A stretch of 64,000 bases of DNA from contig NZ_CADDWI010000013.1 in NCBI RefSeq assembly GCF_902809845.1, positions 248,001-312,000 on the forward strand, written 5' to 3'. How positions within the stretch are numbered: position 1 is the stretch's first letter; each line of letters opens with the position of its first letter. This DNA is from Chelativorans sp. Marseille-P2723 (GTDB lineage: Bacteria; Pseudomonadota; Alphaproteobacteria; Rhizobiales; Rhizobiaceae). Positions 20,781 through 47,234 of this stretch are shown piece by piece. The notes beneath the pieces are model-generated. The model did not search any database and was not told the DNA's origin. It was given only the letters and a program-made list of their open reading frames with translations. The position numbers and the translations under genes are program-made.

Positions 20781-22916
20781 CTATGGGTCCGCAAAGAGGC
20801 TGTGCAATTTGGCTTGTATCGCGGCGGAGACATCCGACTGGAAACAGACGCTATCCTCGCTCAGTTTTGCAAGCGCGAGTAATTGACGGAGTATGGAATT
20901 CTGGATCTCGAGATCTGGAACAGGGATCTGCATCCGCAGGAACTTGTCCTCTTTGAGGCGAACCCGATTCGTAGACCCCTCACTGGCGCGACGGCAAAGG
21001 TCAACGAATGCCTCTGTCCTTGTAATCCACTCGAAGAAATGCGGGAGGATAACCGTATCGTCGATTTGGAATGCAGGAAAATCTCCACTAACCAGAGCTC
21101 CGTCGAGTTCATCCGGAATGATCCCAAACGCCCCATGTCGAGCATCAATGCGTGACATCAGAAACTGCCCGGCGGAAACCTGAATCTGCTTCTCGGCAGC
21201 AATCTCGGATCCTGGCTTAACTCCACGAAGCACTAATCCTTTGCCCCAGAGTCGAACAGTGATCTGCTTGTATTCTATGTCTGGTGTTATTGTTGTCTTC
21301 TTCACGACCTTAGAGAGAAATTGACCAATTTCCATTCGTCGGAACAGAGGTTCATGATGAAGGTCAATTTCTGATGCTATACTCTCTAATTTCTTCAATA
21401 CATCTCTTTGTTGATCCAGCAGAGAAGAAATAATCTCGCCGGGTCGCCGCAGATCGATTAAGGCACTCTTATGCGGGTTCTTTACGTCCAGGTTGCAGCT
21501 GATAAGCTGACCTCGATCATCCCGAATGATGATTTCGTCCCGTGAAATCTTCCACGCTCGGTCACTTTCGTACCGATCTTGCCACCAATCTAGACATCCC
21601 CTGAACTCTTCATAGAGCATCGGCGCGGTCTTGCTGTACTTCTTTCGTCCTTCAGGTTCTGGCTGTTCGTAAAACCAGACGTCACCTGTCGACCCCGATG
21701 TATCGAAGAAGAGTAGATTGGTTGCGATATCGGTGTAAGGCTCGAAAACTCCAGGCGGAAGCCGGACTATCGTGTGCAGGTTGAATTGCTCCAGCAAGTC
21801 GGCCTTGATGACGGCGGCAATGCCGTCGCCGAAGAGCGTACCATTGGGGACGACGACCGCGGCCCGGCCGCGCCCGGCACGCTTCAGTCGCCGCATGATC
21901 AGTTGCAGAAACAGCAGCGCCGTTTCGGCCGTACGCCGGTCCTCTGGGAAGTTGTTGAGGATGCCTGCCTCCTCCTCGCCGCCGAATGGCGGATTGGTCA
22001 GGATGACATTGACCCTCTGATCCTCGCCGATCTCGGCCAGGCGGAAGCGAAGGGCGTTGCCGGGGTCGATGCGCGGGGCGTGCAGGCCGTGCAGCAGGAG
22101 GTTGAGCTGGGACAGCAGGAACGGCAGCGACTTGGCCTCGCCACCGAAGAAGCTGTCTTCCTGCAGGATTCGCCGCTTCTCGACCGTGTCTGCCTGGCGC
22201 TCGAGATGCTGAAAGGCTTCTGTCAGAAATCCGCCGGTGCCGCATGCCGGATCGAGGATGGTCTCGCCCAGTTTGGGATCGGTCACCTCAACCATGAACC
22301 GCACGACCGGTCGGGGCGTGTAGAACTCGCCTGAGTCCCCCGCCGCGTCACGCATCTCGCGCAGCAGCGTCTCGTAGAGGCGGCCGAGGGTATGGACTTC
22401 CTCCGACGAGTCGAAGTGGATGCCGTCGACCAGATTGACCACGTCGCGCAGGAGGTAGCCGCTTTCCATGCGGTTTGCGAAGCCCTGGAAGACCGTGGCG
22501 ATCACGTCGCGCCGCTCGCGCCGCCCGTTATCGCCGCGCAGGGCGCGGAGATAGGCGAAGAGCCCCGGACCCCGGGTGCCGTCCGGGCGCTCGGTCATTT
22601 CGGAAACGAGGAAAGACAGTAGGTCGGGGCCGGTGATGCCATCCGCATCCGCCGCCCAGTCGCGCCAGCGATATGGAGGCTCTATAATCGGGCGATAGTC
22701 CTTGCCTGCGAGCTCCGCGCGTCCTTCCTCGATCCGCTCCATGTCGTCCAGGAACTTCAGGAACATGATCCAGGTGAGCATCGGCAACCGATCGAGATCG
22801 CCGTTCAGCCCCTTGTCCTTTCGCATGATCTTGCGGGCGGACTTGATAATGCTGTCGAGACGCTGGGCAGTGGTCAGTTGCTTCGGCGCAGCCTTCTTAC
22901 GGGCGGTTCTGGCCAA
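20781..22916 (-). CDS. hsdM: Type I restriction methyltransferase with fused half-HsdS domain
   Basis: 711 residues. The N-terminal helical HsdM domain (LPMLTWIMFLKFLDDMERI) is followed by the N6-adenine methylase core: EFYTPRPVVRFMVE, ILDPACGTGGFLTEAFQ (motif I, SAM site) and VILTNPPFGG (motif IV, catalytic NPPF). From about residue 490 the protein continues into a region unlike HsdM (IGQFLSKVVKKTTITPDIEY, GVKPGSEI, QFLMSRIDARHGAFGII), which looks like one HsdS target-recognition domain plus a helical spacer. Seventeen bases separate it from hsdR upstream. The C-terminal third is AT-richer, suggesting domain exchange. Confidence 0.88.
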   Translation of the reverse strand: MARTARKKAAPKQLTTAQRLDSIIKSARKIMRKDKGLNGDLDRLPMLTWIMFLKFLDDMERIEEGRAELAGKDYRPIIEPPYRWRDWAADADGITGPDLLSFLVSEMTERPDGTRGPGLFAYLRALRGDNGRRERRDVIATVFQGFANRMESGYLLRDVVNLVDGIHFDSSEEVHTLGRLYETLLREMRDAAGDSGEFYTPRPVVRFMVEVTDPKLGETILDPACGTGGFLTEAFQHLERQADTVEKRRILQEDSFFGGEAKSLPFLLSQLNLLLHGLHAPRIDPGNALRFRLAEIGEDQRVNVILTNPPFGGEEEAGILNNFPEDRRTAETALLFLQLIMRRLKRAGRGRAAVVVPNGTLFGDGIAAVIKADLLEQFNLHTIVRLPPGVFEPYTDIATNLLFFDTSGSTGDVWFYEQPEPEGRKKYSKTAPMLYEEFRGCLDWWQDRYESDRAWKISRDEIIIRDDRGQLISCNLDVKNPHKSALIDLRRPGEIISSLLDQQRDVLKKLESIASEIDLHHEPLFRRMEIGQFLSKVVKKTTITPDIEYKQITVRLWGKGLVLRGVKPGSEIAAEKQIQVSAGQFLMSRIDARHGAFGIIPDELDGALVSGDFPAFQIDDTVILPHFFEWITRTEAFVDLCRRASEGSTNRVRLKEDKFLRMQIPVPDLEIQNSILRQLLALAKLSEDSVCFQSDVSAAIQAKLHSLFADP

Positions 22917-22933
22917 GTTGGATCTCCTTCAAT

Positions 22934-25312
22934 TCAAGCGGTGTAGAGCAGACGCTGCAGCTCTGTGACGGCGCTGCGCAGCTCCTTGCCCCCGCCGAAG
23001 CGGGCGGCGATTTCGATGACGTTGCCCCACTCGTTGAACGGGGGCACTTCCAGGATGTCGGGCAGCTTGAACTGAGCACTGCCGTGTTCGGCATACTTTT
23101 CAAGCACGGCATCCAGAACTTCGCGGGCATCCGGCCCAAAACGGTCCAGAAACTCGTCCTGCTCCCTTACCAGTCGGTCAGCGCGCTCGCGCCGGGTTCG
23201 CAGCGGCGCGTTATAGGCGAGATGGCAAAGGAGATCGAATGGATCGGCTTCCGGCTTCCCGACTGCATCAGCCAGGTAATCGAGGTCTATGCCCTTTTCC
23301 TCGAGCCGTTCGACGATCTCCGCGCGGCGTTCGGGATCGAGCCAGTTCGTGCGCAATTCGGACGCATTGGGATAAAGCGTGCGAACCTTGTCGCCGGTGT
23401 AATCGGTGAGCTGGCGGCAGGCGAGCTGTCGCCCATCGGAATCGAGTTCGTATACGAGGTGCCTGACGATCGCGACCTCGCCGCCGTCGACATAGAACTT
23501 GCGGGGCGCGTTCTCGGCCTCGTCTCCCAGGTCGACGGGTCCATCCGAGATATCGGGCCCTTCAGGAAAATCATCCGAATCCAGCGCTACTTCTTCGATC
23601 TCACGCTCTTCGACAATGTCGCCGTCAGCATTGATGACCGCTTCGTCTTCGCGAACAGGATCGCCGTCAAAGGCAGGATCGGCGAACATGCGTGTCGCCG
23701 TTCCGGTGTAGTCGATGATGTTGAAGGCGAGCTTGCCATAGTCGGGCCTGAGACGAGTGCCCCTTCCGATGATCTGCTTGAACTCTGGCATGGAACCCAC
23801 GACCCGCGCGAGCACGACGTTCTTGCATGTTGGAGCATCCACACCGGTTGTGAGAAGCTGCGATGTAGTTAGGATTACCGGCGTCTGGGTCTCGACATCC
23901 TGAAACTTCGCCCTGTGCGCGCTTCCCACATCGCCTTCGTCGGAGGTCACGCGGCAAACGTAGTCGGGATGGTCCTTCACGAGATCAGTATTCAGGGCGG
24001 CGAGCGCCTGCCGCATCTCGAGCGCGTGCTCCTGGTCGACGCAGAAGACGATGGTCTTGGCGAAGCGGTCGGTCTCGGCCATGAAGCCCGCGAGATGTCT
24101 TGCAATGGCCTCCGTTCGTGCACGCAGCGCCACGACCCGCTCGAAGTCCCGGGTGGAGTATTCGGCGTCGGGGATCTCGCGTCCATAACGATCAAGTTCA
24201 CCCCGCGTCGGTCGCCAGCCAGCAGCGTCGTAGTCTGAGATAACGCGATGAACGCGATACGGGGCCAAAAAGCCATCGGTGATGCCCTGCGCTAGGCTGT
24301 ACTCGTAAAGCGGATCACCGAAATAGTTGTAGGTATCGACGTTGTCTTCCCGGCGCGGCGTCGCTGTCATCCCAATTTGGGTTGCAGGCTCGAACCATTC
24401 GAGGATTTCCCGCCAATTGCTGTCGTCGCGAGCACTGCCACGATGGCATTCGTCAATGATGATGAGATCGAAGAAATCCCGCGCATACTCTCGGTAGAGG
24501 CCGGGACGGTTCTCGTCACGCGCGATGGACTGGTAGATCGCGAAATACATGTCGCGACTCTTGACCGCCACGCCGCCAGCTATCTTGTGACGAGCGTCGC
24601 CAAACGGGCTGAAATCCTTTGCCATCGGATCGTCAACCAGAACGTTGCGATCAGCGAGAAACAGGATCTTCGGGTTCCGGTTGACCCCTTTGGAATTCCA
24701 GCGTGCAGACCAAAGTTTCCAGCAGATCTGGAAGGCAACGGCCGTTTTCCCCGCTCCGGTGCACAGTGTGAGCAGTGCTCGTTTCCTGCCCTGAAGCGTC
24801 GCCTGAACGGCGCGGTTGACAGCGATCTCCTGGTAGTAGCGAAGAGGTTTGGTCCGGTCTGGAAACGTGGGCGTTAACAGTCGTTCGGCCACTTCGTCGT
24901 CGACAATGTCCTCGGCGCGGCGGAGCCGTCCCCAAAGGTCATCAGGCGTCGGGAAATCCGCAATGGTTCGCTCAACACCGGTCGTGTAGTCGAATTCGAC
25001 AATCTCGATCCCATTGGTCGAGTACGCGAACTGCAGACCGAGGATCTCTGCATATTCCTTGGCTTGTTGCAGCCCCTCCGCAGCGTGCCGGTAGCGGGAT
25101 TTGGCCTCGACAACGGCGATCGGGAAGTCCGGATTATACCGGAGCAGATAGTCTGAGCGCTTCTGCTTGCCACGGCGAGCTTTGCCGCCGACAAACACAA
25201 CTCGGCCGTCAGTGAAAGTTTTCTGTTCGTTTATCGCGTGCGGTCGATTATCCCAGCCTGCTTGCTGCAGCTTCGGGACGACGAACTTCCTGCAGGTATC
25301 GGCTTCGTTCAT
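22934..25312 (-). CDS. hsdR: Type I restriction endonuclease subunit R, EcoEI type
   Basis: 792 residues. N-terminal nuclease: SDYLLRYNPDFPIAVVEAKS, with the D..ExK pattern of the PD-(D/E)XK fold at about residues 50-75. SF2 translocase: LLTLCTGAGKTAVAFQ (Walker A), LIIIDECHRGSA (DECH), MTATPRRED, and QIIGRGTRLRPDYGK (motif VI). The C-terminal part (about 600-792) matches the EcoEI_R_C helical domain. It cuts DNA that lacks the methylation set by HsdM-S. First gene of the operon; a candidate promoter lies just upstream. Confidence 0.93.
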   Translation of the reverse strand: MNEADTCRKFVVPKLQQAGWDNRPHAINEQKTFTDGRVVFVGGKARRGKQKRSDYLLRYNPDFPIAVVEAKSRYRHAAEGLQQAKEYAEILGLQFAYSTNGIEIVEFDYTTGVERTIADFPTPDDLWGRLRRAEDIVDDEVAERLLTPTFPDRTKPLRYYQEIAVNRAVQATLQGRKRALLTLCTGAGKTAVAFQICWKLWSARWNSKGVNRNPKILFLADRNVLVDDPMAKDFSPFGDARHKIAGGVAVKSRDMYFAIYQSIARDENRPGLYREYARDFFDLIIIDECHRGSARDDSNWREILEWFEPATQIGMTATPRREDNVDTYNYFGDPLYEYSLAQGITDGFLAPYRVHRVISDYDAAGWRPTRGELDRYGREIPDAEYSTRDFERVVALRARTEAIARHLAGFMAETDRFAKTIVFCVDQEHALEMRQALAALNTDLVKDHPDYVCRVTSDEGDVGSAHRAKFQDVETQTPVILTTSQLLTTGVDAPTCKNVVLARVVGSMPEFKQIIGRGTRLRPDYGKLAFNIIDYTGTATRMFADPAFDGDPVREDEAVINADGDIVEEREIEEVALDSDDFPEGPDISDGPVDLGDEAENAPRKFYVDGGEVAIVRHLVYELDSDGRQLACRQLTDYTGDKVRTLYPNASELRTNWLDPERRAEIVERLEEKGIDLDYLADAVGKPEADPFDLLCHLAYNAPLRTRRERADRLVREQDEFLDRFGPDAREVLDAVLEKYAEHGSAQFKLPDILEVPPFNEWGNVIEIAARFGGGKELRSAVTELQRLLYTA

Positions 25313-25508: not shown

Positions 25509-25907
25509 TTAGAACCACTGCCTTTCCCACTCCACTGGAAACGGCTTCATCAGCTTCGCCAGCGTGATCTCTGGGCCCTGCCTGCCGTCCAGGATCGCCT
25601 CGATGATTGAAGGCGCCAAGAGGGTCAGACGCATCACCCGGCTGACGTAGGAAGTATTGATCTTTTCGGCGGCAGCGACCTCCTCAATGGTGGTGTAAAC
25701 ACCGGTTTCGAGCTGCTTGCGCCAACGGAAGCCGCGGGCGATCGCCTTGACCATCGTGTTGTCGATCCTGGCGCGCGGCGCCCAGGACGATGTGGCATCG
25801 GGCAGGACAATCTGCTTGCGGCCTCCGCGTTTGGCAAAGGTCAGCGGTACATGCACAGTGATGGCATCACCATCGCGGGAAACTGTAACAGCGGTCTTCG
25901 CGATCAT
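25509..25907 (-). CDS. Recombinase-associated HTH-like protein
   Basis: 132 residues. The segment TTIEEVAAAEKINTSYVSRV followed by MRLTLLAPSIIEAILDG resembles the helix-turn-helix of ParB-type proteins. The C-terminus LAKLMKPFPVEWERQW is conserved in similar proteins encoded directly after serine recombinases in alphaproteobacterial prophages. Its start overlaps the recombinase stop by 4 bases. It may be a recombination directionality or accessory factor; that is inference from position only. Confidence 0.75.
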   Translation of the reverse strand: MIAKTAVTVSRDGDAITVHVPLTFAKRGGRKQIVLPDATSSWAPRARIDNTMVKAIARGFRWRKQLETGVYTTIEEVAAAEKINTSYVSRVMRLTLLAPSIIEAILDGRQGPEITLAKLMKPFPVEWERQWF

Positions 25908-27235
25908 GCTGCTTTCCTCGCATCGATATTTTGCGGATCCCGGCCAATATCTGTGAGGTCCTGGATGAGACTGGTCAGCCCTTCCGTTCGCAGGTGAATG
26001 GAAAGACCGCTGACCGAAAGCTCTATACGCTTGACGAGAAGCTGGACGATGCGAGCCTGCTCAGCCGGAAAGAGCTCATCCCAGATGGGGTCGAGTTGCT
26101 CCAGCGCCTCACGGACTTCCATCTCTGACAATCCGTCGATCTCCGATCTTGCTTCACGCCATGTGCCGATGATGATTTCCGGTGTCCGCAATAACGCGCG
26201 CAGCTGATCGATGACGGCAGTCTCCACCTCTGCTGCGGGTACACGGGCGATTGGGCAAGCATTGGCGCCATGCTTGAGAACCGTCTGGCTGACATAGTAG
26301 CGATAGAGCCTGTCGCCCTTCCTCGTATGCGTCGGCGAGAATGCCGCCCCATCCGGGCCGAAGATCAGGCCTTTCAACAGCGCCGGTGTCTGTGCGCGCG
26401 TATTGCTGGCGCGCTTGCGAGGGCTGGTGCGAAGAATGGCATGAACTCTATCCCATAAAGCTTGCTCGATAATTGGCTCGTGTTCGCCGGGAAAGCTTTC
26501 GCCCTTGTGTACGGCCTCGCCGATATAAACCCGGTTGTTGAGAAGCTTGTACAGAAAGCCTTTGTGGATCGGCTTGCCGCGGCGGGTACGCACGCCCTCA
26601 GAGGCTAGCATTTTTGCCAGGACCGTGGCAGAGCCGACGGCAACGAAGCGTTCGAAGATCATGCGAACGACGGCCGCCTCCTTGTCATCGATCACCAGCT
26701 TGCGGTTTTCGACACGATAACCAAGCGGCGCGATGCCGCCCATCCACATCCCCTTCATTCGGCTGGCCCGGATTTTGTCGCGGATGCGTTCAGCGGTCAC
26801 CTCGCGCTCGAACTGGGCAAAGGAGAGCAGAATATTGAGCGTCAGCCGGCCCATGGATGTGGTGGTGTTGAACGACTGCGTGACCGACACGAAGGTAACG
26901 CCATTTCGATCGAACACCTCGACCAGCTTTGAAAAATCCATCAGCGAGCGCGACAGGCGGTCGATCTTGTAGACGACCACCACATCAATCAATCCGTCCT
27001 CGATATCGGCGAGCAGCTGCTTCAGCGCCCGACGTTCCAGCGTGCCGCCGGAAACGCCACCATCGTCATACCGATCACGCACCAGCACCCAGCCCTCGGA
27101 GCGCTGGCTGGCGATATAGGCCTCACAGGCCTCGCGCTGCGCATCGAGGCTGTTGAACTCCTGCTCCAGCCCCTCCTCGGAGGACTTTCTGGTGTAGATG
27201 GCGCAGCGCAGCTTGCGAACGGCACGCTTCGTCAT
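25904..27235 (-). CDS. Large serine recombinase (phage integrase)
   Basis: 443 residues. Resolvase N-terminal domain: CAIYTRKSSEEGLEQEFNSL contains the catalytic Ser, and VVVYKIDRLSRSLMDF and AQFEREVTAERIRDK the arginine and helix-E motifs. The recombinase domain starts at GIAPLGYRVENRKLVIDDKE and is followed by a zinc-ribbon-like stretch (LLKGLIFGPDGAAFS and later CPIARV) that is reduced in cysteines compared with relatives. Starts at MTKRAVRKL, overlapping the DUF2924 stop by 4 bases; a longer upstream frame was rejected. Integrates or excises the prophage by att recombination. Confidence 0.92.
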   Translation of the reverse strand: MTKRAVRKLRCAIYTRKSSEEGLEQEFNSLDAQREACEAYIASQRSEGWVLVRDRYDDGGVSGGTLERRALKQLLADIEDGLIDVVVVYKIDRLSRSLMDFSKLVEVFDRNGVTFVSVTQSFNTTTSMGRLTLNILLSFAQFEREVTAERIRDKIRASRMKGMWMGGIAPLGYRVENRKLVIDDKEAAVVRMIFERFVAVGSATVLAKMLASEGVRTRRGKPIHKGFLYKLLNNRVYIGEAVHKGESFPGEHEPIIEQALWDRVHAILRTSPRKRASNTRAQTPALLKGLIFGPDGAAFSPTHTRKGDRLYRYYVSQTVLKHGANACPIARVPAAEVETAVIDQLRALLRTPEIIIGTWREARSEIDGLSEMEVREALEQLDPIWDELFPAEQARIVQLLVKRIELSVSGLSIHLRTEGLTSLIQDLTDIGRDPQNIDARKAA

Positions 27236-27684
27236 GTCCGGCACCGATGGTTCTTCAGGCCAAAGAAGATCCAGCCATTCCAGCGCGTACCGGTAATGGC
27301 ACGGGCAACCGCTGACAGGCTCTTGTAGGGGCGCCCCTGCCATTCATAACCGTCAGCCAATACGGTGACCGTGTGCTCCACACCCTGCCACTCGCGAATG
27401 AGGCGGGTGCCAGCAATCAGACGGTCGTCAGTGCGTCTCCTTCGCACCATCTCGTTCCCGCCATCAAGCTGCTCGCCCAAGGCTTCCAGCCGCTCGATGG
27501 TCGATGGCTTCAAGCCACCATAGGCCAGTTCCTGAATGCGATAGGCCAGCCTGCTTTCCAGATAGCGGCGGTTGAAGGCGGGCGGCTCGCTGTCGAACAG
27601 CTCGCGCCACTGCTGCTTCAGATCAGGCGTCGGCATGGTCTTGAGACCAGCCAGACGCGCCGGGATCGGATCGTGTTCGGTCAT
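27232..27684 (-). CDS. DUF2924 domain protein
   Basis: 150 residues. Core LKQQWRELFDSEPPAFNRRY, LESRLAYRIQELAYGGL, and the C-terminal GTRLIREWQGVEHTVTVLAD then FEWQGRPYKSLSAVA-like YEWQGRPYKSLSAVARAITG. The family is encoded almost always next to a serine recombinase. The second half resembles small DNA-binding tail modules of recombinases, so a partner role in site recognition is plausible but unproved. Coupled by 4-base overlaps to both neighbours. Confidence 0.88.
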   Translation of the reverse strand: MTEHDPIPARLAGLKTMPTPDLKQQWRELFDSEPPAFNRRYLESRLAYRIQELAYGGLKPSTIERLEALGEQLDGGNEMVRRRRTDDRLIAGTRLIREWQGVEHTVTVLADGYEWQGRPYKSLSAVARAITGTRWNGWIFFGLKNHRCRT

Positions 27685-27884
27685 GCTTGCTCCTCATGAG
27701 TTGGAGTTGCATGACGGCATCGGTCGGGCGTGAAGTGAAGGCAACGTTCTCCTTTATCTTCAAAGCTTTGCTCCCGATTGCGCTGGAGCAGACGAACGAG
27801 GCCCAGCGCCAGCAACTGGTACAGTTCCGCGCGGCGTTCGGCAGTGCTCATGAGATCGGGTGAAATTGGATTGGGGATTTTCAT
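27681..27884 (-). CDS. Small recombinase-module protein
   Basis: 67 residues, MKIPNPISPDLMSTAERRAE then LYQLLALGLVRLLQRNREQS and the conserved-looking ERCLHFTPDRCRHATPTHEE. Proteins with this LHFTPDxxxHATP tail occur upstream of DUF2924 in related prophages. Function unknown. First gene of the four-gene overlapping module, transcribed leftward, divergent from the uncharacterised pair at 28.0 kb. Confidence 0.7.
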   Translation of the reverse strand: MKIPNPISPDLMSTAERRAELYQLLALGLVRLLQRNREQSFEDKGERCLHFTPDRCRHATPTHEEQA

Positions 27885-28013
27885 GGGGCTCCCACCAACA
27901 GGAGATATCCCCAGTCAAGTACTCACCGCCGCGCCAAACCGTCTCACCGATTCGACTCCACGTTGAGGTTTTGATAAAGAACATAATGGGAACAAAAATT
28001 AATGGGGTGCGCC

Positions 28014-29249
28014 ATGAAGAAGAGCATCAAGAAGTTCGTCAGTCGAGAATTCGTCAAGACGGTCGACCTTGAACTTCTGAGACGGCTCATCGATAAGTTC
28101 GATGCCGCAGAGCAGCTTGGATGGGAGAACTTGCCTGAGGAAGATCGCGAACGGCGTGAGGCGATCTACGAACTTTTCCGCGGCGCGGATGAGACCTTTC
28201 CCAAGAAGCTACTTGATGCACTCCACCGGATCATGATGCTCTCCAATCCAACCGGAGTCCGGCTTCTCCACGAACGCGCCGAGGCGGCCGGGATCAAGCT
28301 GATACCTGACGAGGAGTTGGAAGACGAAAATGATGGCCGCCATCTCACGCCGCGGCACATCGCGCTCCGAGCTTTCCTCGACCACCAGGAAATATTCGAT
28401 CAAACCCGCAAAGTCGCCGCCTTCTTCTTTGGCAGCAAGATTCTAGAGTTCCATGGAACGCCCGATACGCCCTCACGCCATGATAGTGCCGAAGCGCGTG
28501 AAGCTTTTCAGAAGGCCGCTTCAGCTTACTTTTCAGAGCGCTATCAGGGGCGTTACTGCCGGATCAGCTGGTATGATGAAGGCGAGGAAATTCGCATTAT
28601 GGTGGCACACGGCCACAACGCGACCATGGCGAATGTCGAAGAAGATGGTGAAGAGCAAACACGAGCCTGGCGGGAGATTGGCGAAGACAGCATCCGCTAT
28701 CACGCTCCCTCCGGGTGGGCGGGTGTCATGGCCAGGACGCTGGGCGACCAGCGCCAGCTTGCCGCGCTCTTCGCAGAACATATGCTGGGTGATGCGGACT
28801 TCTTCAAAAAGCGCGAGAATGAACAGCTTTACACGTTGCGGCCTGTTCAGGAACAGGGTGGTGATTTCCGTTTTCAATACGACTGGGACGAACGTGTTCA
28901 AGATGTTCAAATTCGACAGATCGTGATCGACGACGGTGAATATGTACTCGATGGTCGCCGACATCATTCACCATGGACCCATACGTGCAAAGACAATCAT
29001 GATGCGATAACGCAACTGCTCGAGTTCGCACCGGATCTTGACCTATCCGAGGTCCGGATCGTCTCGATGAAGTTGGTATTTCGGTTCGTTATCAACGGAG
29101 AGGTTTTTCCGGTCGCTGTGACGATCAGGCCGCCACATACTGCCACGATCTCCGATCGTACACTGGAAGACGCCATCATGGAGCATTTGACACGGAATGG
29201 CATCCGCCTCCCTCGTCAAGCTGACACGGCTGCTATTGCAGCGGAGTGA
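28014..29249 (+). CDS. Uncharacterised 411-residue protein, first of a gene pair
   Basis: I do not recognise this family. The N-terminal ~100 residues look helical and charged (FVSREFVKTVDLELLRRLID, PEEDRERREAIYELFRGADE). The middle holds RHIALRAFLDHQEIFDQTRK and RYCRISWYDEGEEIRIMVAH. The C-terminal third seems beta-rich (QIVIDDGEYVLDGRR, LVFRFVINGEVFPVAVTI). No membrane segment or signal peptide. The GTG/ATG at 28002 is possible, but GGGGTG sits well for the ATG at 28014. The next gene starts 53 bases before its end, so they are probably translated together. Located where phages carry lysogeny-control or cargo genes. Confidence 0.75.
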   Translation: MKKSIKKFVSREFVKTVDLELLRRLIDKFDAAEQLGWENLPEEDRERREAIYELFRGADETFPKKLLDALHRIMMLSNPTGVRLLHERAEAAGIKLIPDEELEDENDGRHLTPRHIALRAFLDHQEIFDQTRKVAAFFFGSKILEFHGTPDTPSRHDSAEAREAFQKAASAYFSERYQGRYCRISWYDEGEEIRIMVAHGHNATMANVEEDGEEQTRAWREIGEDSIRYHAPSGWAGVMARTLGDQRQLAALFAEHMLGDADFFKKRENEQLYTLRPVQEQGGDFRFQYDWDERVQDVQIRQIVIDDGEYVLDGRRHHSPWTHTCKDNHDAITQLLEFAPDLDLSEVRIVSMKLVFRFVINGEVFPVAVTIRPPHTATISDRTLEDAIMEHLTRNGIRLPRQADTAAIAAE

Positions 29250-30183
29250 TCGCCACCCAATCGGCCGCCTGGATGGCAATGATCAGAGGACTGCGGACGC
29301 GGCCGTTTTTCTGCGTTTCCTGAATCTCGGATTGCTGACTGAGGAGACGCAGCTTTCGGATTCCGATGGCATCATGTTCGAGACTATCGGCGGCCGCGTC
29401 TGGGGATTTTGTGCAGATGGGACGGGTAATGCTGATGTACTCACCCAAGATGACCTACGCCAGTTCAAAATCGATCTGACTGCCGTTTGCCGGCAAATCC
29501 GCAAGGCCAACCAGATTGAAGGACCGCCATTGGAGCCCCTCGGCCCCTTTGCCATGCGGATCGGGGCGGTCGGCAGCGGTAGCAGGCGGCGGCAATATTT
29601 TTTGGTACGCGCGCTACGCCCGAAGAATGCGCTTGATCTTGCCTATACGATCCGGGGACACGCCGATGAAGGCGCTGTTGTCATCTTGACGCCGACTGAG
29701 CGCAATTTGCCCGACAATGTGATACGATTGCTGCGGTCAACACAGATCGAAATTATCCCGATTGACGTACATCTTGACGAGAACGCTGCAGAACCACTTG
29801 TTTTAAATCTGTTGCGCACACCACAAGGAATGCCGATCGACGAGCCGGAGCTTTTCATCGACACCGGTGGTCATCGGGTATGTTTTCATGGCGCTGACGT
29901 TAGCCTGACGCCGCGCGAACTCAATGTTCTCGTTGTCCTGGCCAACGAGGCCGCTCATGATGCCGGCGTCGTCAACCAACACTTCCTTCTCGATTGTCTG
30001 CGCGGATCCGATGACAATGAGGAAGCTTTGCCTGAGCAACTGCAAAAGGTAATCAGCCTGTTACGGACTGCACTGACATCGGCAGCTGGCCTGCCACGCG
30101 AGCATGGGCGAAAGCTTATTATCTCCAAACGCGGCATTGGATACCGGCTGGGTATCCAGCAAGGAAATATCAGAATCGTCTAA
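29197..30183 (+). CDS. Uncharacterised protein with C-terminal winged helix
   Basis: 328 residues. The C-terminal ~100 residues look like an OmpR-type winged helix (VSLTPRELNVLVVLANEAAH, then LPREHGRKLIISKRGIGYRL, the typical trans-activation C-terminal hairpin with RGIGYRL). The N-terminal part (about 40-210) has alternating strands and helices (RRRQYFLVRALRPKNALDLA, GAVVILTPTERNLPDNVIRL, IEIIPIDVHLD) and no phospho-receiver Asp pattern I can assign. It is therefore a likely DNA-binding regulator with an unknown sensor or effector domain, paired with the 28.0 kb gene. Confidence 0.75.
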   Translation: MASASLVKLTRLLLQRSDRHPIGRLDGNDQRTADAAVFLRFLNLGLLTEETQLSDSDGIMFETIGGRVWGFCADGTGNADVLTQDDLRQFKIDLTAVCRQIRKANQIEGPPLEPLGPFAMRIGAVGSGSRRRQYFLVRALRPKNALDLAYTIRGHADEGAVVILTPTERNLPDNVIRLLRSTQIEIIPIDVHLDENAAEPLVLNLLRTPQGMPIDEPELFIDTGGHRVCFHGADVSLTPRELNVLVVLANEAAHDAGVVNQHFLLDCLRGSDDNEEALPEQLQKVISLLRTALTSAAGLPREHGRKLIISKRGIGYRLGIQQGNIRIV

Positions 30184-30299
30184 TCCTTCTAATCAGGCCG
30201 GCAGGCATCTGGAAGCTTTCGGGAAGGTTCCAAAGAGGCTTCTCCAGTCGTGATCGGTGACCTTCGGTTCATCACAAACGATGAATCGAGGTCCTGCCG

Positions 30300-30875
30300 A
30301 TGCGCTGCCCAATCTCCCCCGCTGATCTTTCCACCCTCCAGCTAGTCGCTGACCGCGTTGCACGTCGGACCCGCCAGCGGCTCGGGTTGCCCGTGCAGGA
30401 TCTCGATGACCTGCGCCAGGAGCTTTTGCTCGAACTGATCGCCCGGTTTCCCACTTTCGATCCGACTCGAAGTCCCCTGGAAGCTTTCGCTCAGATGGTC
30501 GCCAGCCACCGTGCCACCCGCATCGGACGCGCCGTGTGGCGTGAGCGTCAGCTTTATGGTCGCACGCCTTTGTCGCTGGACGCACCGTTGGCGGGTGATG
30601 ACCACGCTGTCGTCGGTGATCTGTTTTCGCAAGAACAGGGACTGGGCGCACTGTTTGGCCAAAGCTTCGACATTGAAGATGGTGCCGTCACCAGCACCAG
30701 TCTCGATGTCGGATTGGCAAAACTTGCACCCGATGACCAGCATCTTTGCGCTGCCCTTGTCGGATCAAGCATCAATCAGCTTGCCGCGTCCGGCCATGGT
30801 GCCCGCGCCACCCTTTACCGCCGCCTGAAAGAAATTCGCCTCACGCTTCTCGCGCACGGCGTGGAGCCTGCGTGA
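30300..30875 (+). CDS. Sigma-70-like factor of the prophage
   Basis: 191 residues. DLDDLRQELLLELIARFPTF followed by DPTRSPLEAFAQMVASHRAT resembles sigma region 2, and the C-terminal LAKLAPDDQHLCAALVGSSI with LAASGHGARATLYRRLKEIR resembles region 4 (helix-turn-helix). Similar proteins occur in early regions of alphaproteobacterial prophages. Either a true sigma for late genes or a DNA-binding relative; region 2 is short. Starts the early block on the plus strand. Confidence 0.7.
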   Translation: MRCPISPADLSTLQLVADRVARRTRQRLGLPVQDLDDLRQELLLELIARFPTFDPTRSPLEAFAQMVASHRATRIGRAVWRERQLYGRTPLSLDAPLAGDDHAVVGDLFSQEQGLGALFGQSFDIEDGAVTSTSLDVGLAKLAPDDQHLCAALVGSSINQLAASGHGARATLYRRLKEIRLTLLAHGVEPA

Positions 30876-30908
30876 GACGGATCTGAAGCTCGGTGAGTAA
30901 TAATCAAT

Positions 30909-31292
30909 ATGAACAAGATTTCTCATAAATCCGCCCAGTTGCTGCTGACCGAGGCGCAGTTCTGTGCCTGGATCGGCCAGTCGGCGCCCGGCGCTACCAT
31001 TCAGTACCATTGCGGTTTTCTCGCAATCGACATGGTACGCGCCAGTAGCAATCTCCCTGAGACTGACCGCAAGGAACTTGTTCGAGTTGGCCGCCGTGCC
31101 TGGTGGGCTTTTGATCAGGGCCTCGTCCATCTCGTGCAGCGCCGGCTCGGCACAGATCGCTTTGCCTATCTGGCGATTGCCCGTGCGCGCCCGAAAAAGA
31201 TGCAGGCAAGCCTGCTTCGTGTGCTGGCCCAGCATGAAGAAACGGGCGGCCTCGCCAATCCCAACAATTCTCTTCGTCGCTTCCGATCCTGA
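30909..31292 (+). CDS. Conserved phage hypothetical protein
   Basis: 127 residues, no motif recognised. Sequence features: LLLTEAQFCAWIGQSAPGAT near the N-terminus, a stretch YHCGFLAIDMVRA, helices around RVGRRAWWAFDQGLVHLVQR, and a basic C-terminus. It lies 33 bases after the sigma-like gene and 12 before the next, so it is part of the early operon. Confidence 0.65.
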   Translation: MNKISHKSAQLLLTEAQFCAWIGQSAPGATIQYHCGFLAIDMVRASSNLPETDRKELVRVGRRAWWAFDQGLVHLVQRRLGTDRFAYLAIARARPKKMQASLLRVLAQHEETGGLANPNNSLRRFRS

Positions 31293-31304
31293 AAGGAGCC
31301 TTCG

Positions 31305-31598
31305 ATGTTTGCCACCTCCAAGTTGAACACCTTGCGCAAACGCCATTACGGTCTTGATGGTTTGCCAATTTCGATCTGCGTTCTGGCATCCGACAGGCTC
31401 GCCAGTTCCGTGCGGCCCATCGAAAACGCAACGCTTGATGAGGTGGCGTTTGCCATCGTCAAGGCCGAGCAGGCTTACAATGCGGCCGGCGATCGCCTGT
31501 TTGCCTTGCGCCGCCTCTACAATCTGGCACGCGAGGCTGGTGGGGTCGGGTCTGGTTGTGCAGTTGATGCCGCCAGCAAAGCCAGGTCGGAGCGCTGA
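31305..31598 (+). CDS. Small phage hypothetical protein
   Basis: 97 residues. Helical core DEVAFAIVKAEQAYNAAGDR and LFALRRLYNLAREAG, low-complexity C-terminus. No family recognised. Two bases before the RuvC-like gene, hence in the same operon. Confidence 0.6.
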   Translation: MFATSKLNTLRKRHYGLDGLPISICVLASDRLASSVRPIENATLDEVAFAIVKAEQAYNAAGDRLFALRRLYNLAREAGGVGSGCAVDAASKARSER

Positions 31599-31600
31599 TC

Positions 31601-32155
31601 ATGGCAGTGCTCGCAATTGACCCCGGCCTCAACAACGGCATCGCTGTTCTGGATCTTGAGCGCCGGCTGCTGCTGGCAACCGAAATCCCCGTGATCGGTG
31701 AAGGCGCCAACAAGCGCCTGAACCTGATCTCCTTCGCCGACATTCTGACCCAGTTCCGCATCCGGCACGCTGTGGTCGAGGACGTCGCGGCGATGCCCAA
31801 ACAGGGGCTGACCTCAACATTCCGTTTCGGTCGTGCCTCAGGCAGCTTTGAGGGCGCTCTCGCCGCACTCAAGATCCCGACAAGTTTCGTCCGCCCTGCG
31901 ATCTGGAAACGCGACATTGGCGCCAAGGCCAAGCGTGATGAAGACATTCGCGCCCTTGCCATCCAGACCTGGCCGGATCAGGCGCACCGTTTTGCACGCA
32001 AGCGCGACCATAACCGTGCCGAAGCCGCGCTGATCGGTCTCTGGTTCCTGCAACATTCCGGCTGGACGTCCGGAGGTGAGGACACTCCGCCCACCTCCTC
32101 CTTGCCTGCAGGATCACGGGTCTTCGTTGGCGGCGAAGGCTGGAGGACGCTCTGA
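31601..32155 (+). CDS. RuvC-like Holliday junction resolvase
   Basis: 184 residues with the RNase H-like fold: VLAIDPGLNNGIAVLD (first catalytic Asp), AVVEDVAAMPKQGL (second acidic residue) and a C-terminal HNRAEAALIGLWFL helix that carries the last acidic residue. Likely resolves branched recombination or replication intermediates of the phage. Overlaps the next gene by 1 base (TGATG). Confidence 0.82.
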   Translation: MAVLAIDPGLNNGIAVLDLERRLLLATEIPVIGEGANKRLNLISFADILTQFRIRHAVVEDVAAMPKQGLTSTFRFGRASGSFEGALAALKIPTSFVRPAIWKRDIGAKAKRDEDIRALAIQTWPDQAHRFARKRDHNRAEAALIGLWFLQHSGWTSGGEDTPPTSSLPAGSRVFVGGEGWRTL

Positions 32156-32898
32156 TGAACCCGTTCGAGGCTCATGGAATAGACCACATTTCGGTCAGCC
32201 AGTTGAACCTGTGGGCTGCGGCTCCTGGTATCTATGTGATGGAGCGTCTGCTCGGCTATCGCGCACCAGTTGGTGCCGCCGCCCATCGTGGCACCGCGGT
32301 CGAAGCAGGCGTCATCGCTGGCTTGATGGGTGCATCGCTCAAAGAGGCCATCGACACCGCGAACGCCGTTTTCACCGAACGGACCGCTTTGTCGTCTGAT
32401 CCACGCCGCGACAAGGAACGAGATGCGCTTGCCGGCATGGTCGAACGCGGGATCGAGCTGCTCGGGCCATGGGGCCGGCCCGACCGTGTGCAGGTGCGCA
32501 AGGAATGGCGCATGGAAGGCATCGCCGTTCCGGTGTTGGGTTTTACCGATGCCGAATACGACGCGCACGGGCTGATCCTCGACCTGAAGACGACCCACGC
32601 CCTGCCGAACGCCATCCGGACAAGCCATGCAAGACAGGTGGCTTCCTATTTCGGCGCAGGATCGAACTTCAATGGCGGCATAGGTTACGTGACCTCGAGG
32701 AAGTCGGCACTCTACCGGTTGGAGAACGCTTCAGCCCATGTCGCGGCCCTGACCCGCATGGCGCATTCGCTGCAGAACTTCCTCGCCATCTCCACCGATC
32801 CACATGAGCTGGCGAGCCTGATCACCGTCGATACTGATTCATATTTCCTCTCAGACCCGAGGGCCAGACAATCGGCATGGGAGGTGTTCGGCGTATGA
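32155..32898 (+). CDS. PD-(D/E)XK nuclease family protein
   Basis: 247 residues. SQLNLWAAAPGIYVMERLLG at the N-terminus, GTAVEAGVIAGLM, and the nuclease core GFTDAEYDAHGLILDLKTTH, matching the D..(D/E)xK signature of Cas4/RecB-like exonucleases. No four-cysteine Fe-S cluster as in Cas4. Likely a phage recombination exonuclease. Its stop overlaps the following endonuclease gene by 4 bases. Confidence 0.82.
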   Translation: MNPFEAHGIDHISVSQLNLWAAAPGIYVMERLLGYRAPVGAAAHRGTAVEAGVIAGLMGASLKEAIDTANAVFTERTALSSDPRRDKERDALAGMVERGIELLGPWGRPDRVQVRKEWRMEGIAVPVLGFTDAEYDAHGLILDLKTTHALPNAIRTSHARQVASYFGAGSNFNGGIGYVTSRKSALYRLENASAHVAALTRMAHSLQNFLAISTDPHELASLITVDTDSYFLSDPRARQSAWEVFGV

Positions 32899-33428
32899 AA
32901 ACGATCCCTCTCACTCAAGGATATGTTGCCCTCGTCGATGACGACCACTTCGGGACTTTGTCTGCACGGAAATGGTTCGCGGCGCGGGACGCAAGGGGCC
33001 TTGTCTATGCAAGAACAAAGATCGATGGCCGAGCGGTCGGCATGCACCGCGTTATTATGAATGCTCCAAAAGGCATTCTGGTTGATCATAAGAACCGAAA
33101 CACGCTCGACAATCGACGTTGCAACCTGCGCCTTGCGACATCTCAGCAGAACAACGCCAACAAATCCTTTCAGTCTCGGAAGTTCAGCTATCGCGGCGTT
33201 CTTCAAACCCGTTCGCAGAAGTCTTATGGCGCCCAGATCCGAGTGAACCGCAAGCTCATCTATCTCGGATCTTACCCAACGATTGAGGAGGCGGCCCGCG
33301 CGTATGACGCGGCCGCAACGCGCTATTTCGGAGAGTTCGCATCTCTGAATTTTCCCGGAGATTCTCGCAGGGGAATGGCACGTCGCCGGCCAGACGGCGA
33401 CACAACGCGCGCAGCGCAGAAAGACTGA
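32895..33428 (+). CDS. HNH endonuclease with AP2 DNA-binding domain
   Basis: 177 residues. N-terminal NUMOD/HNH part: MHRVIMNAPKGILVDHKNRN then TLDNRRCNLRLATSQQNNAN. C-terminal AP2-like domain: YRGVLQTRSQKSYGAQIRVN, LGSYPTIEEAARAYDAAATR and FGEFASLNFP. This architecture is that of free-standing homing endonucleases. It begins in the stop codon of the exonuclease gene and ends 4 bases before the next, as if inserted cleanly into an operon. Confidence 0.88.
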   Translation: MKTIPLTQGYVALVDDDHFGTLSARKWFAARDARGLVYARTKIDGRAVGMHRVIMNAPKGILVDHKNRNTLDNRRCNLRLATSQQNNANKSFQSRKFSYRGVLQTRSQKSYGAQIRVNRKLIYLGSYPTIEEAARAYDAAATRYFGEFASLNFPGDSRRGMARRRPDGDTTRAAQKD

Positions 33429-33432
33429 GAAC

Positions 33433-34077
33433 ATGACTACTGGTTTTGGCTTGAGCATTGCTAGCGGCAAGGATTTTCTGCCAACCATCCGCATCAACGG
33501 CAAGGATGGTGGCGTCGAGCGATCGACATGGGATGGCAGCGAGCGTGGTCTCGAAGTGGTCGAGGACCTCGTCTGCCTGATGGACTGGGCCACACTGCAG
33601 GTCGGCTGGGTCGAATTTACAGACAAGGGCCCCGACAAGCGGCTGGTAACAATTGGCGATCCGCTGCCCGACCGCCCCTCCGAAAAGCACAAGCAGGGCG
33701 TGCAGGTGGTTGTCTATCTGCCGGGCGGTCTTGGTTGCCATGAAATCTGTTCGACTGCGATCGGTGTCGTCGGCGCGCTGGAGCGCATCTATGAGACGAG
33801 CATCGCCGCACCTGAATGGCAGCAAGGCAAGGTACCGGTGGTGCGCTTGAGCGAGTTCATCAAGGAAAAGACCAAGCATGGCAATCGCGCCGTGCCGGTC
33901 TTCGAGATTCTCGACTGGAAAGATCGCCCCGCAGAACTCGGTGAACACAAGGCCACGCCGAAGCCGCGTGCAGCCATGCCGGCTTCCCCCAGCCCGAACC
34001 GTCCGGCTGCGACCGGCTCAACCCAGATGACGCCGCCCGCGTCCGTCACCCGCGCCCCGGTGCCGGACTTCGGATGA
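33433..34077 (+). CDS. Conserved phage hypothetical protein, possible DNA-binding
   Basis: 214 residues. N-terminal beta-rich portion (FGLSIASGKDFLPTIRINGK, LVCLMDWATLQVGWVEFTDK, VQVVVYLPGGLGCHEICSTA) and a Pro/Ala-rich low-complexity tail ending in APVPDFG. The compact domain plus disordered tail is reminiscent of single-strand DNA-binding proteins encoded between recombination and replication genes, but no firm match can be claimed. Lies between the AP2/HNH gene and the primase gene. Confidence 0.6.
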   Translation: MTTGFGLSIASGKDFLPTIRINGKDGGVERSTWDGSERGLEVVEDLVCLMDWATLQVGWVEFTDKGPDKRLVTIGDPLPDRPSEKHKQGVQVVVYLPGGLGCHEICSTAIGVVGALERIYETSIAAPEWQQGKVPVVRLSEFIKEKTKHGNRAVPVFEILDWKDRPAELGEHKATPKPRAAMPASPSPNRPAATGSTQMTPPASVTRAPVPDFG

Positions 34078-34162
34078 GCGTCGAGGGGATCGGGAGGCGG
34101 CCACCTTCCGATCCCCGCACACCACCACGAAACAATGATCCTGGACATGGGGCGCGCGTGCA

Positions 34163-36670
34163 ATGACCGTAGAACTGCCAGATGATTTTGCAAGTGCCTG
34201 TCAGTGGGCTGACAGCTATCGCGCGCTCAGGCTTGCGGTGATCCCTGCTGCCGGCCGGGAAAAGATCCCGGTCGGCAAATGGCGTGAGTTCCAGACCGGC
34301 ATTCCACAGACCGTCCATGAGCGCTGGTACGGCGACGACGGTGAACATCGCGCCAATTATCGCATGGGTTTTCTGACCGGTGCTGCCTCGCTCGGCGATG
34401 GCTGGAAGCTACTGGTCATTGTTCTTGACGAGAAAGGCACAGTATCCGGCTCCGCGACTTGGGATCACTGGATTGCCGACAATGAGCTCGGCTGCGATCC
34501 TAAAACGTGGCGCGCCCGCACCGGCGGTGGCGGTCAGCACATTTACTTCCGCTATCCCGAGCATCTTTCCATCCGGAATACGCAGGAGACAATCGCCGGC
34601 ATCGATGTCCGCGCCGAGGGTGGGTTTGTCATTGCTCCGCCGTCGCGACATCAGAATGGCAAGCAATATCTCTGGATCTTCTCGCCCTTCGACACCGATC
34701 TGGCCGAAGCGCCGCAATGGCTGCTGGACAAGGTCGGGGCAACGGAGGCGCTGCCACTGGCGGCTGCGCCAGCCCAGCCATCGGCACTGTTATCATCACC
34801 TCCGCATGTCCAGACGGCGACAGCGGCGGCCGATCCCTCCGCACCACCACAACAGGCGACCGATGCCTGGGGGCATATCGTCGATGGCCGCGACGCTTAC
34901 ATGCGCGACATGGTCTGGGCAGCGATCGTCGACTGGTATCGCGAATGCCCGATCCCGCCTACTGCCCCTGAAGTCGAGCAGAAACTGCTCGAGATTTACA
35001 CTGTCTATGAGCGCAAGGTGCGTCCGCAGGAGGCTGGAAACACGCTCGAGGGCGAGGGACGCGGCCTTTCTGCCTTTCGCGAAAAATGGGCCTACGCCAT
35101 GCGGCAGTGGGACACCAAGGTTGCAGCGGCGGCAAAGCAGCACGTTATCCAACCAGCCGACGACGCTGATACCGTGACGGGGGATCATGATGCTGCCGAT
35201 CCCGTCGATCTGTGGTCGAAACTGGCACCACCTTCACTACCGACCGGCCTCCTGCCACGCCAGATCGAGGCTTTCGCTCTCAATGAGGCCGAGCAGATGG
35301 GCGCGGATCCAGCCGGACTTGCCATGGCTGCGCTGGCAGTTTGCGCAGCTGCCATTCCAGATCGCGTCAGGATCAAGGTCAAGCGGCACGGCCACTGGTA
35401 CGAAAATGCACGCCTGTGGATCGCGCTGATCGGTTCGCCCAGCACCAAGAAAAGCCCGATCATCGGTCAGGCCGTGCGGCCAATCGCACGGCTTGATACG
35501 ACAATGATGCGGAGATTTCTGGCCAAGCTGGCGGACTATAACGAACTGACGAAAGACGAACGGAAGGGGACCGAACGCCCACGCCAGCGTCGCCTGCGTA
35601 TCGAAGACACTACGATCGAGGCGGCGCAGGAGGTGCTCAAGGATAGCCCCGATGGTGTGCTGCTGATCCAGGACGAGCTTTCCGGCTGGTTCGGCGCCAT
35701 GGACAAATACAACAGCGGCGGGCGTGGGGCGGCCAAGGACCGGGCCTTCTGGCTGCAATCCTTCAACGGCGGTCAATATGCGGTCAACCGCATCGGCCGT
35801 GATTCTGCGCTGATCGAGAACCTGTCTGTCTCGATGCTGGGCGGCATCCAGCCTGAAGCAATAGCCTCCGTTGCAAAGGAAAGCGTTGATGACGGTTTGC
35901 TCCAACGCTTGCTGCCCGTCGTCCTGCAGCGCGCCTCCGTCGGCAAGGACGCGCCGATTACCAGTACCACCGAACGTTACGAGGCGCTGGTGGAGCAGCT
36001 GACCGCGATCAACATTTCTGGCATCGCGTCGTTCGGCAACAGCCACGACGCGCAGGAATGCCTGACGCTCTACTTCTCCGATGAGGCGCTGACCATTCGC
36101 GAGGAACTGGAAGCCCGACATCTGGCCTTGATGGACATTGAGGGCATCAACCGCAAGCTTGCCTCACATATCGGTAAATATGACGGCATCTTCGCCCGGC
36201 TCTGCCTCGTCTGGCACTGCATCCTCAACATCAACCGCGGCGTCATCCCGCCAGAAATATCGGCTGAGACGGCTACCCGCGTCGCAACATTCCTGCATGA
36301 GTTTGTGCTGCCACATGCCGCTGCTTTTTATACATCTGTGCTCGGCCCGTCATCGGAACTCGAAGAACTCCAGGCCATCGCCAGCTATATCCTGACCGCC
36401 GGGCTGAAAATCATCACGATGCGCGATTGCCAGCGCGGCGTTCATGCCATGCGCTCGCTAGACCGGTGGCAGTTCCAGCGCCTGATGGAGCGGCTCGAGA
36501 GCCTTGGGTGGGTCACGCAGATTGATCCGCCGAAGAACTCCAGCGCCCCACGCTGGGCGATCAATCCACGCGTCCACGATCTTTTCCAGCAGCGCGCCGC
36601 CGCCGAGGCCGCACGCAAGGGCAAGATCAAGGTCGCCTGGCAGGCCCTGTCAGAAATCCAGGAGAAATGA
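34163..36670 (+). CDS. Phage primase-helicase (prim-pol plus DUF3987-like)
   Basis: 835 residues. N-terminal bifunctional primase/polymerase-like domain (PAAGREKIPVGKWREFQTGI, LLVIVLDEKGTVSGS, GGGGQHIYFRYPEH, GIDVRAEGGFVIAPPSRH), where the usual acidic DxD near strand 2 is only partly kept. The second half is the DUF3987 type: IALIGSPSTKKSPIIGQAV at the nucleotide-binding position, and LLIQDELSGWFGAMDKYNSG as Walker B. A C-terminal winged-helix-like end (WQFQRLMERLESLGWVTQI) follows. Likely starts and unwinds phage replication. A repeat cluster follows directly. Confidence 0.87.
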   Translation: MTVELPDDFASACQWADSYRALRLAVIPAAGREKIPVGKWREFQTGIPQTVHERWYGDDGEHRANYRMGFLTGAASLGDGWKLLVIVLDEKGTVSGSATWDHWIADNELGCDPKTWRARTGGGGQHIYFRYPEHLSIRNTQETIAGIDVRAEGGFVIAPPSRHQNGKQYLWIFSPFDTDLAEAPQWLLDKVGATEALPLAAAPAQPSALLSSPPHVQTATAAADPSAPPQQATDAWGHIVDGRDAYMRDMVWAAIVDWYRECPIPPTAPEVEQKLLEIYTVYERKVRPQEAGNTLEGEGRGLSAFREKWAYAMRQWDTKVAAAAKQHVIQPADDADTVTGDHDAADPVDLWSKLAPPSLPTGLLPRQIEAFALNEAEQMGADPAGLAMAALAVCAAAIPDRVRIKVKRHGHWYENARLWIALIGSPSTKKSPIIGQAVRPIARLDTTMMRRFLAKLADYNELTKDERKGTERPRQRRLRIEDTTIEAAQEVLKDSPDGVLLIQDELSGWFGAMDKYNSGGRGAAKDRAFWLQSFNGGQYAVNRIGRDSALIENLSVSMLGGIQPEAIASVAKESVDDGLLQRLLPVVLQRASVGKDAPITSTTERYEALVEQLTAINISGIASFGNSHDAQECLTLYFSDEALTIREELEARHLALMDIEGINRKLASHIGKYDGIFARLCLVWHCILNINRGVIPPEISAETATRVATFLHEFVLPHAAAFYTSVLGPSSELEELQAIASYILTAGLKIITMRDCQRGVHAMRSLDRWQFQRLMERLESLGWVTQIDPPKNSSAPRWAINPRVHDLFQQRAAAEAARKGKIKVAWQALSEIQEK

Positions 36671-38001: not shown

Positions 38002-38997
38002 GTGCCGATAGAGGGATTTAGAGCAACTCGCTCTCTCCTGCGGGAGTTTTTCGAGGCCGTCCCGGGAGCGGTGTACGCAAAGGATCGCGCGGGTCGGATC
38101 CTGCTTGGGAACGAAACCTTCGCAAAGGCTGTTGGTTGGCCGTCGGGCGGTTTTATCGGAAAAGACGATCTCGAGCTCCTGGCAGACAAGGATCTGGCCC
38201 GCACGATCATGGAGAATGATCGGCGCATAATGGCCGGACAATCCCGATGCCAGATCGAGGAAATACTGCAGGCGGAGGATGGCAGCATTTCCTATTGGTT
38301 GTCGACAAAGACGCCCTTTACCGATGACGAGGGAAAGGTTGTGGGCCTTGTGGGCGTTTCGATCGACATCACAGAGCGAAAGCGCCTCCAGGAGCGGGAG
38401 CGGCTCCTCGCCCGGGAGATCGAACATCGCAACAAGAACTTGTTTGGCGTCGTGCAAAGCGTTGTCCGACTGACGAAAGCAGCCACGGCAGAAGAGTTCC
38501 GTGAAGCGGTAATCGGCCGGCTTGAAGCACTTAGTCGGGCCCAGGCCATTTTAACGCGAGAGCTCCAGCAACAGGTAGGATTGCGAGAATTGCTGCTCGA
38601 AGAACTGGCAGCCTACAGCATCAATATCGCTGATCGGGTTCGTCTGGAGGGACCTCCCGTTTCCGTTGCCGCGGAGGCGGCACAGCCCCTTGCTATGGCA
38701 TTTCACGAATTGGCTACCAATGCTGCCAAATACGGAGCCTTTGCCGATGCATCAGGTTCGCTCGACCTGATTTGGGAGCTCCCCCGGCAAAGCAGTACGC
38801 AACTGGCGATTGAATGGAGGGAGCTCGGCGGCCCTCCCGTCAAGATGCCGGCTCAACAGGGCTTTGGCACAAGATTGATCCATTCCGTAGTGGAACAGCA
38901 GCTTCAAGGGACACTCTCGTGGATCTGGGAGCCGAACGGGCTGCGCTGCCTGATTTCATTACCGATAGAGAGCATTGCAACGACTCGTGGGCCGTAA
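38002..38997 (+). CDS. PAS-HWE sensor histidine kinase
   Basis: 331 residues, soluble. N-terminal PAS domain (FFEAVPGAVYAKDRAGRILL, SYWLSTKTPFTDDEGKVVGL, VGVSIDITERKRLQERE). HWE kinase core: EIEHRNKNLFGVVQSVVRL with phospho-acceptor His, AMAFHELATNAAKYGAF (N box), AIEWRELGGPPV (the Trp-x-Glu signature) and GFGTRLIHSV (G box). Starts with GTG after GGAGG. No transmembrane segment and no receiver partner nearby. Codon use resembles chromosomal genes, so it may be cargo rather than phage core. The 127 bases before it hold no gene. Confidence 0.9.
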   Translation: MPIEGFRATRSLLREFFEAVPGAVYAKDRAGRILLGNETFAKAVGWPSGGFIGKDDLELLADKDLARTIMENDRRIMAGQSRCQIEEILQAEDGSISYWLSTKTPFTDDEGKVVGLVGVSIDITERKRLQERERLLAREIEHRNKNLFGVVQSVVRLTKAATAEEFREAVIGRLEALSRAQAILTRELQQQVGLRELLLEELAAYSINIADRVRLEGPPVSVAAEAAQPLAMAFHELATNAAKYGAFADASGSLDLIWELPRQSSTQLAIEWRELGGPPVKMPAQQGFGTRLIHSVVEQQLQGTLSWIWEPNGLRCLISLPIESIATTRGP

Positions 38998-46930: not shown

Positions 46931-47234
46931 GTGGCGCAAAACCCAGCGTGGCAGCACCTCGTCCTGGGAATGGCGCCCGGCCATGTCGTGAATGGTGCTG
47001 TTCTCTGGTCGTGCAACGGTCTCATCTTACCCATCGCCAATGCCAGCGGTAGCGCGTCGATCGGGCTGCTCCTGCTGCGTTGGGGTACCCGATCGCCAGC
47101 GTTGCTGACGCGATCCCCGTGGCAACTCGATGCAAAGCCGAGACGCACCGTGTCATAGGCACCGGCGCGATGGGGTCATGGTAGGCTTCGCGACAATAGC
47201 ACGAGCGAACTTGTTTTTTTCAAAAGACCCGCGA
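46931..47234. other. Junction between prophage and catabolic island
   Basis: No convincing gene. Both strands contain short open frames with no recognised similarity, one on the plus strand reading VVNGAVLWSCNGLILPIA. An eight-T run lies at about 47214-47221. Probably scar sequence from the event that removed the prophage tail region and joined the hyu cluster. Confidence 0.45.

Follow-up and report, generated by a model that had tools for sequence, protein, structure and literature searches.

A conserved gene pair as the proposed trigger of a LexA-controlled, activation-built switch in an alphaproteobacterial prophage lineage

A 64,000-nucleotide (nt) stretch of the Chelativorans sp. Marseille-P2723 genome (contig NZ_CADDWI010000013.1, positions 248,001 to 312,000; hereafter the window, with coordinates counted from its first letter) carries a prophage in which two overlapping genes, here called A and B, lie between the integration and the replication operon. 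We report that A-B is a fixed core module of one alphaproteobacterial prophage lineage rather than cargo, and we propose, as the probable reading, that the pair is the trigger of a lysis-lysogeny switch controlled by LexA and built on activation. Prophage induction is commonly told as repressor cleavage or antirepression. If the proposal is true, induction here would instead depend on making an activator, and a sigma factor would couple excision to replication.

In the proposed circuit, host LexA would occupy a GAAC-N7-GAAC box in the lysogen and keep the A-B operon off. DNA damage would remove LexA, and A and B would be made. The winged helix of B, perhaps with A as its partner or modulator, would then act on four 11-bp repeats and turn on a sigma gene. 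The phage sigma factor, finally, would read two outward promoters: a left one driving the operon of sm67, a DUF2924 protein and a recombinase, leading to excision, and a right one driving the replication operon.

Results

The A-B pair is a fixed module of one prophage lineage

The original prediction had claimed two genes with a 53-base overlap, transcribed divergently from a recombinase module. Both open reading frames, gene A (28014..29249, plus strand, 411 amino acids (aa)) and gene B (29197..30183, plus strand, 328 aa), and the 53-bp overlap were confirmed, and a serine-recombinase operon diverges from them in the window and in its relatives. The overlap measured exactly 53 bp in 65 of the 67 loci scored (redundancy included), the other two having 55 bp (L107) and 29 bp (L045). 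A and B were adjacent in all seven loci L038-L044.

A lack of co-occurrence of the two genes elsewhere had been named beforehand as a refuting result, and the pair holds. A scan of viral contigs with the B alignment, which recovers only B proteins sharing one common N-terminal pattern, returned 38 loci; A lay directly upstream of B, and the sigma gene followed the pair, in every one of them. The recombinase was visible in 30, the other eight contigs starting too near A-B. Scanning one genome per species with the A alignment gave 21 loci, a set overlapping with the viral one, with the sigma gene visible in 19 (the exceptions being L106, whose contig ends, and L107) and the recombinase in 17. 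Twenty of these 21 loci fall in genomes that, from their names, we take to be alphaproteobacterial; the last is in a metagenome-assembled genome labelled Halothiobacillus. By genome name, hosts of the pair include Aquamicrobium, Pseudochelatococcus, Roseomonas, Paracoccus, Rhodobacter and others. The best A segment of the species scan, 91% identical, came from Aquamicrobium aerolatum, where A is split over two frames.

As far as their contigs extend, the close relatives fetched keep the arrangement of the window, with L107 as the exception. The original prediction had also offered an unnamed defence or stress cassette. In favour of this stand the unfamiliar proteins in a prophage that also has a type I restriction system. 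Yet place, overlap and neighbours are all constant in those relatives (L107 excepted), and neither A nor B matched a PADLOC family at E ≤ 0.1, so that we dropped this claim and consider a cargo cassette barely credible.

Very distant A/B-like pairs were also seen in two other prophage-like regions, one in the same genome (L045; C13:1295000-1314900) and one in genome G073 (L046). Gene order around both differs from that of the main lineage. The B-like gene of L045 is broken, and the B-like protein of L046 contains several cysteines and matched nothing in NCBIfam.

A belongs to no family found and B carries an OmpR-type output domain

The claim that no known family is matched stood for A, which had no match at E ≤ 0.1 in four libraries (Pfam, PHROGs, PADLOC and NCBIfam); in B, the OmpR-type output domain that the original prediction had seen was matched. 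The predicted model of A, of moderate quality and with no fold to be trusted from it, suggests a helical N-terminus followed by a strand-helix domain (about residues 140-265) and a poorly predicted C-terminus. Among 101 genomes, that of the window and 100 relatives, five have the A protein, near full-length in four and as a short match in G030. No relative of A was detected among 50,697 phage records (four query variants, E ≤ 0.01) or among plasmids (two query variants).

B comprises an alpha/beta N-terminal part and, at residues 216-322, the C-terminal winged-helix effector domain of OmpR/PhoB regulators. The output-domain match lies close to the Pfam cut-off, and Trans_reg_C was matched in 14 of 18 aligned B proteins; PHROG 731 (function unknown) covers the same part, and NCBIfam response-regulator models match below their cut-offs. 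As to the receiver, missing in the original prediction, the observations point both ways: Response_reg found no match in the 18 B proteins at E ≤ 1, yet alignments with response regulators run into the receiver half. Single-sequence and profile alignments start at about residues 138-143 and reach the end of B, the winged helix being their confident part. The profile alignment spans residues 143-324 with probability 98, mostly owed to the output domain, and pairs B with PrrA (1ys6) from the middle of the PrrA receiver onward. Since these alignments extend so far, B may be a response regulator with a decayed receiver.

Across the order, 29 of 397 genomes gave a match to B; in six the match covers most of the protein, in the others a part of it, mostly the winged helix. 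Variants of B in L039, L040 and L044 have four or five clustered N-terminal cysteines (CxxCxC...C), resembling a zinc ribbon, that are absent from the B of the window. Neither A nor B matched the CI-type repressor domains HTH_3 (helix-turn-helix) and S24 peptidase at E ≤ 0.1.

A LexA-type box precedes gene A

A putative alphaproteobacterial LexA (SOS) box, GAACATAATGGGAAC (27979..27993, plus strand), starts 35 nt upstream of the A start codon. The direct repeat GTTC-N7-GTTC, of which GAAC-N7-GAAC is the complement, is described as the alphaproteobacterial LexA box in the available text of PMC3323433 and PMC9578287. Upstream of A, the box was present in 33 of 36 non-redundant loci (69 loci less 29 near-duplicates and four cut-off or too-short rows), 34-163 nt before the gene, and L045 and L046, the distant pairs, retain it at 83-86 nt. 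Within this genome, recA and lexA are preceded by a box of the same type. Position and conservation thus suggest that LexA binds here.

The box lies in a region shared by divergent operons, 34-163 nt before A, and might instead serve the leftward recombinase operon, A-B being promoted separately. We rate this as improbable: the box sits on the A side, the conserved motif of the leftward operon lies 59-90 nt further left wherever both were located, and L045 and L046 keep the box without that motif.

An 11-bp array upstream of the sigma gene and the proposed activation by B

Between B and the sigma gene lie four 11-bp direct repeats (30197..30240, plus strand), arranged in OmpR style. The array, our candidate target of B, is placed about 59 bp upstream of the sigma start and keeps a near-constant spacing of 54-62 nt across loci, while the repeat sequence varies between clades. 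Closer to the gene, 14 nt before its ATG, is an inverted repeat, TTCATC-ACAAAC-GATGAA (30268..30285, no strand assigned). Inverted repeats with other arms stand 6-15 nt before the sigma gene in 18 of 20 non-redundant gaps, and could be an operator or an RNA hairpin.

OmpR-type proteins are able to repress, and the inverted repeat that most loci have directly ahead of the sigma start would suit such a role. B, with A, might accordingly silence the sigma promoter, basal A-B keeping the gene off and the LexA box merely adjusting or delaying the response. We think this unlikely, if a shade less so than the leftward role of the box: an SOS-induced repressor would be self-defeating, its level rising exactly when induction is wanted, and an array 54-62 nt upstream of the sigma start suits an activator, the position of the sigma promoter itself being putative. 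Together, these points lead us to favour B as an activator.

Two outward motifs flank the A-B and sigma-like genes

The gene following the array (30300..30875, plus strand) encodes a protein resembling sigma-70 factors of the extracytoplasmic function (ECF) type. Sigma70_r2 was matched in 12 of 12 members at E ≤ 0.1, the member in the window scoring 27 bits where the cut-off is 24; Sigma70_r4 found no match in these 12, and the C-terminal part seems helix-turn-helix-like.

Two copies of the motif GAGACG-N14-TGAGTA point outward from the module and are proposed as sigma promoters. The left copy (27920..27945, minus strand) faces the sm67-DUF2924-recombinase operon; the right copy (30874..30899, plus strand) overlaps the sigma stop codon and faces the replication genes. 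For the form G[AG]GACG-N14-TG[AG]GTA, the window has two occurrences against 0.03 expected. With two mismatches the count is 14 against 11.5 expected, which leaves the exact form as the informative one; genome-wide there are three exact copies, two of them those of the window. Allowing one mismatch, 33 of 36 loci have the left copy, the exceptions being L045, L046 and L107; of the 34 loci whose sigma gene was located, 31 have the right copy, the exceptions being L045, L046 and L064. Five phage records, read piecewise, have these two copies as their sole N14 matches, one record having a third match with N15.

The motifs might instead be operators of another regulator, such as A or the 67-aa or 131-aa protein. 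We hold this to be possible and rather doubtful, as a pair of short, asymmetric blocks with constant spacing, facing outward at two operon starts beside a sigma-like gene, has the look of a sigma target. Given a sigma-70-like neighbour, the simplest reading is that the phage sigma factor would recognise both motifs as promoters.

The surrounding prophage

Leftward, on the minus strand, sm67 (27681..27884), a conserved 67-aa protein and the first gene of its operon, is followed by the DUF2924 protein (27232..27684), a large serine recombinase for integration and excision (25904..27343) and a 131-132 aa protein conserved beside it (25509..25907). Rightward, the sigma gene is followed by a replication-type gene row on the plus strand (30909..36670), with two small proteins, a RuvC-like resolvase (31601), further small genes and a primase-helicase (34163). 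The element continues through primase-helicase, methyltransferase, terminase and portal genes, from which we conclude that it descends from a tailed phage. Beyond terminase and portal (44998-47235), about 1 kb of small open reading frames leads to host-type hydantoinase genes on the opposite strand. The copy in the window is probably defective, since capsid and tail genes seem to be missing and little room is left past the portal, the 1 kb of small frames not having been searched.

Between the replication and packaging genes, the prophage also contains a histidine kinase with PAS and HWE-type domains (38002-38997). Another gene of the prophage encodes a DNA methyltransferase fused to a ParB-like domain (40524-41867). 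Type I restriction genes adjoin the recombinase (20781-25312). In their 711-aa HsdM-like protein, residues 527-686 match specificity subunits as well, so the protein looks like a fusion of modification and specificity subunits. HsdM- or HsdR-like matches left of the recombinase were seen in L041, L044, L054 and L070 as well.

Discussion

The original prediction had suggested that the pair may be the lysogeny switch. That it is a core module under a LexA-type box supports a part in such a switch; a stand-in repressor it would hardly be, as a gene that DNA damage induces would more naturally activate the lytic state. Our model would explain why no CI-like repressor is conserved: S24 domains were found in 0 of 13 phage records, some of which may be fragments, in a search that covered repressors of the S24 and HTH_3 families.

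Several observations weigh against this proposal. The loci share ancestry, and their counts are therefore not independent. An exact LexA box was lacking in three of the 36 loci, with two-mismatch sites only in L064 and L093 and three-mismatch sites only in L059. GAAC-N7-GAAC is also common: it occurs 114 times genome-wide against 108 for the reversed control, and twice in the window against 1.71 expected, which is why the case for LexA rests on the position and conservation of the box. HTH_3 proteins occur in 3 of the 13 phage records, other repressor families lying outside that search. The sigma protein scores below NCBIfam cut-offs, and its C-terminal region gives weak matches to mixed helix-turn-helix families, each in up to three of 12 members. 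The right motif ends 9 nt before the next ATG (30909), which is short for a promoter. Lastly, L045 and L046 keep the box and are without the 11-bp array and the outward motif, and no sigma gene was seen on the 11.3-kb contig of L107, implying that the lower tiers of the circuit are not universal.

Taken to its full extent, the proposal describes a purely positive cascade, from LexA to an OmpR-type activator with a partner of a new family, and on to an ECF-like sigma factor with a two-promoter regulon, without a phage repressor and in a phage lineage that has no relative in the collection searched. This wider claim we put forward tentatively and in some doubt. The proposed switch, if real, would represent a control system of one prophage group and, in A, a new protein family. 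Because the LexA box, the 11-bp array and the outward motif are compact DNA targets, every step is open to direct test, and the pair of motifs offers a simple handle for finding such prophages in genomes.

Comparison with known systems

Compared with OmpR/PhoB regulators (PhoB effector domain, 1gxp; BaeR, 4b09), B is alike in its modelled winged-helix output, its tandem 11-bp candidate sites and a weak profile alignment continuing into the second half of the receiver; it differs in having no Response_reg match and in being paired and overlapping with A. The sigma protein shares region 2 and bipartite promoter-like candidate targets with ECF-type sigma-70 factors, from which its prophage origin, its place beside an OmpR-type gene and its sub-cut-off NCBIfam scores set it apart.

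Prophages of Paracoccus, including serine-recombinase ones, were catalogued in PMC6536676, the five induced phages having tyrosine integrases and CI/Cro-like control. The serine-recombinase members are similar in kind of host, size and integrase type and may belong to the same lineage; the available text of that study makes no mention of an A-B pair.

The closest parallels in design are LexA-controlled switches, and the host-type LexA box at the switch promoter that marks them is present here by sequence in 33 of 36 loci. In GIL01 of Bacillus thuringiensis, as far as the available text of PMC6182141 goes, host LexA holds lysogeny, with gp7 as LexA co-repressor and gp6 as a LexA-homologue activator. 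The present system would likewise be kept lysogenic by host LexA in place of a dedicated repressor from the phage, and would use a phage activator for a later promoter; unlike in GIL01, that activator would be of OmpR type, paired with A and feeding a sigma factor, the comparison being one of design and not of gene relationship. In Gifsy prophages, LexA-controlled antirepressors disable an existing phage repressor (PMC3121763, available text). There too a LexA-regulated phage gene starts induction, as proposed here; in our case an operator array of its own seems to be the target of the OmpR-type protein, and neither of the two families searched yielded a shared repressor. Further LexA-using phages are mentioned in the accessible part of PMC9437464. 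In its input, then, the A-B system would resemble the LexA-controlled prophage switches, from which its parts and its sigma tier appear to distinguish it.
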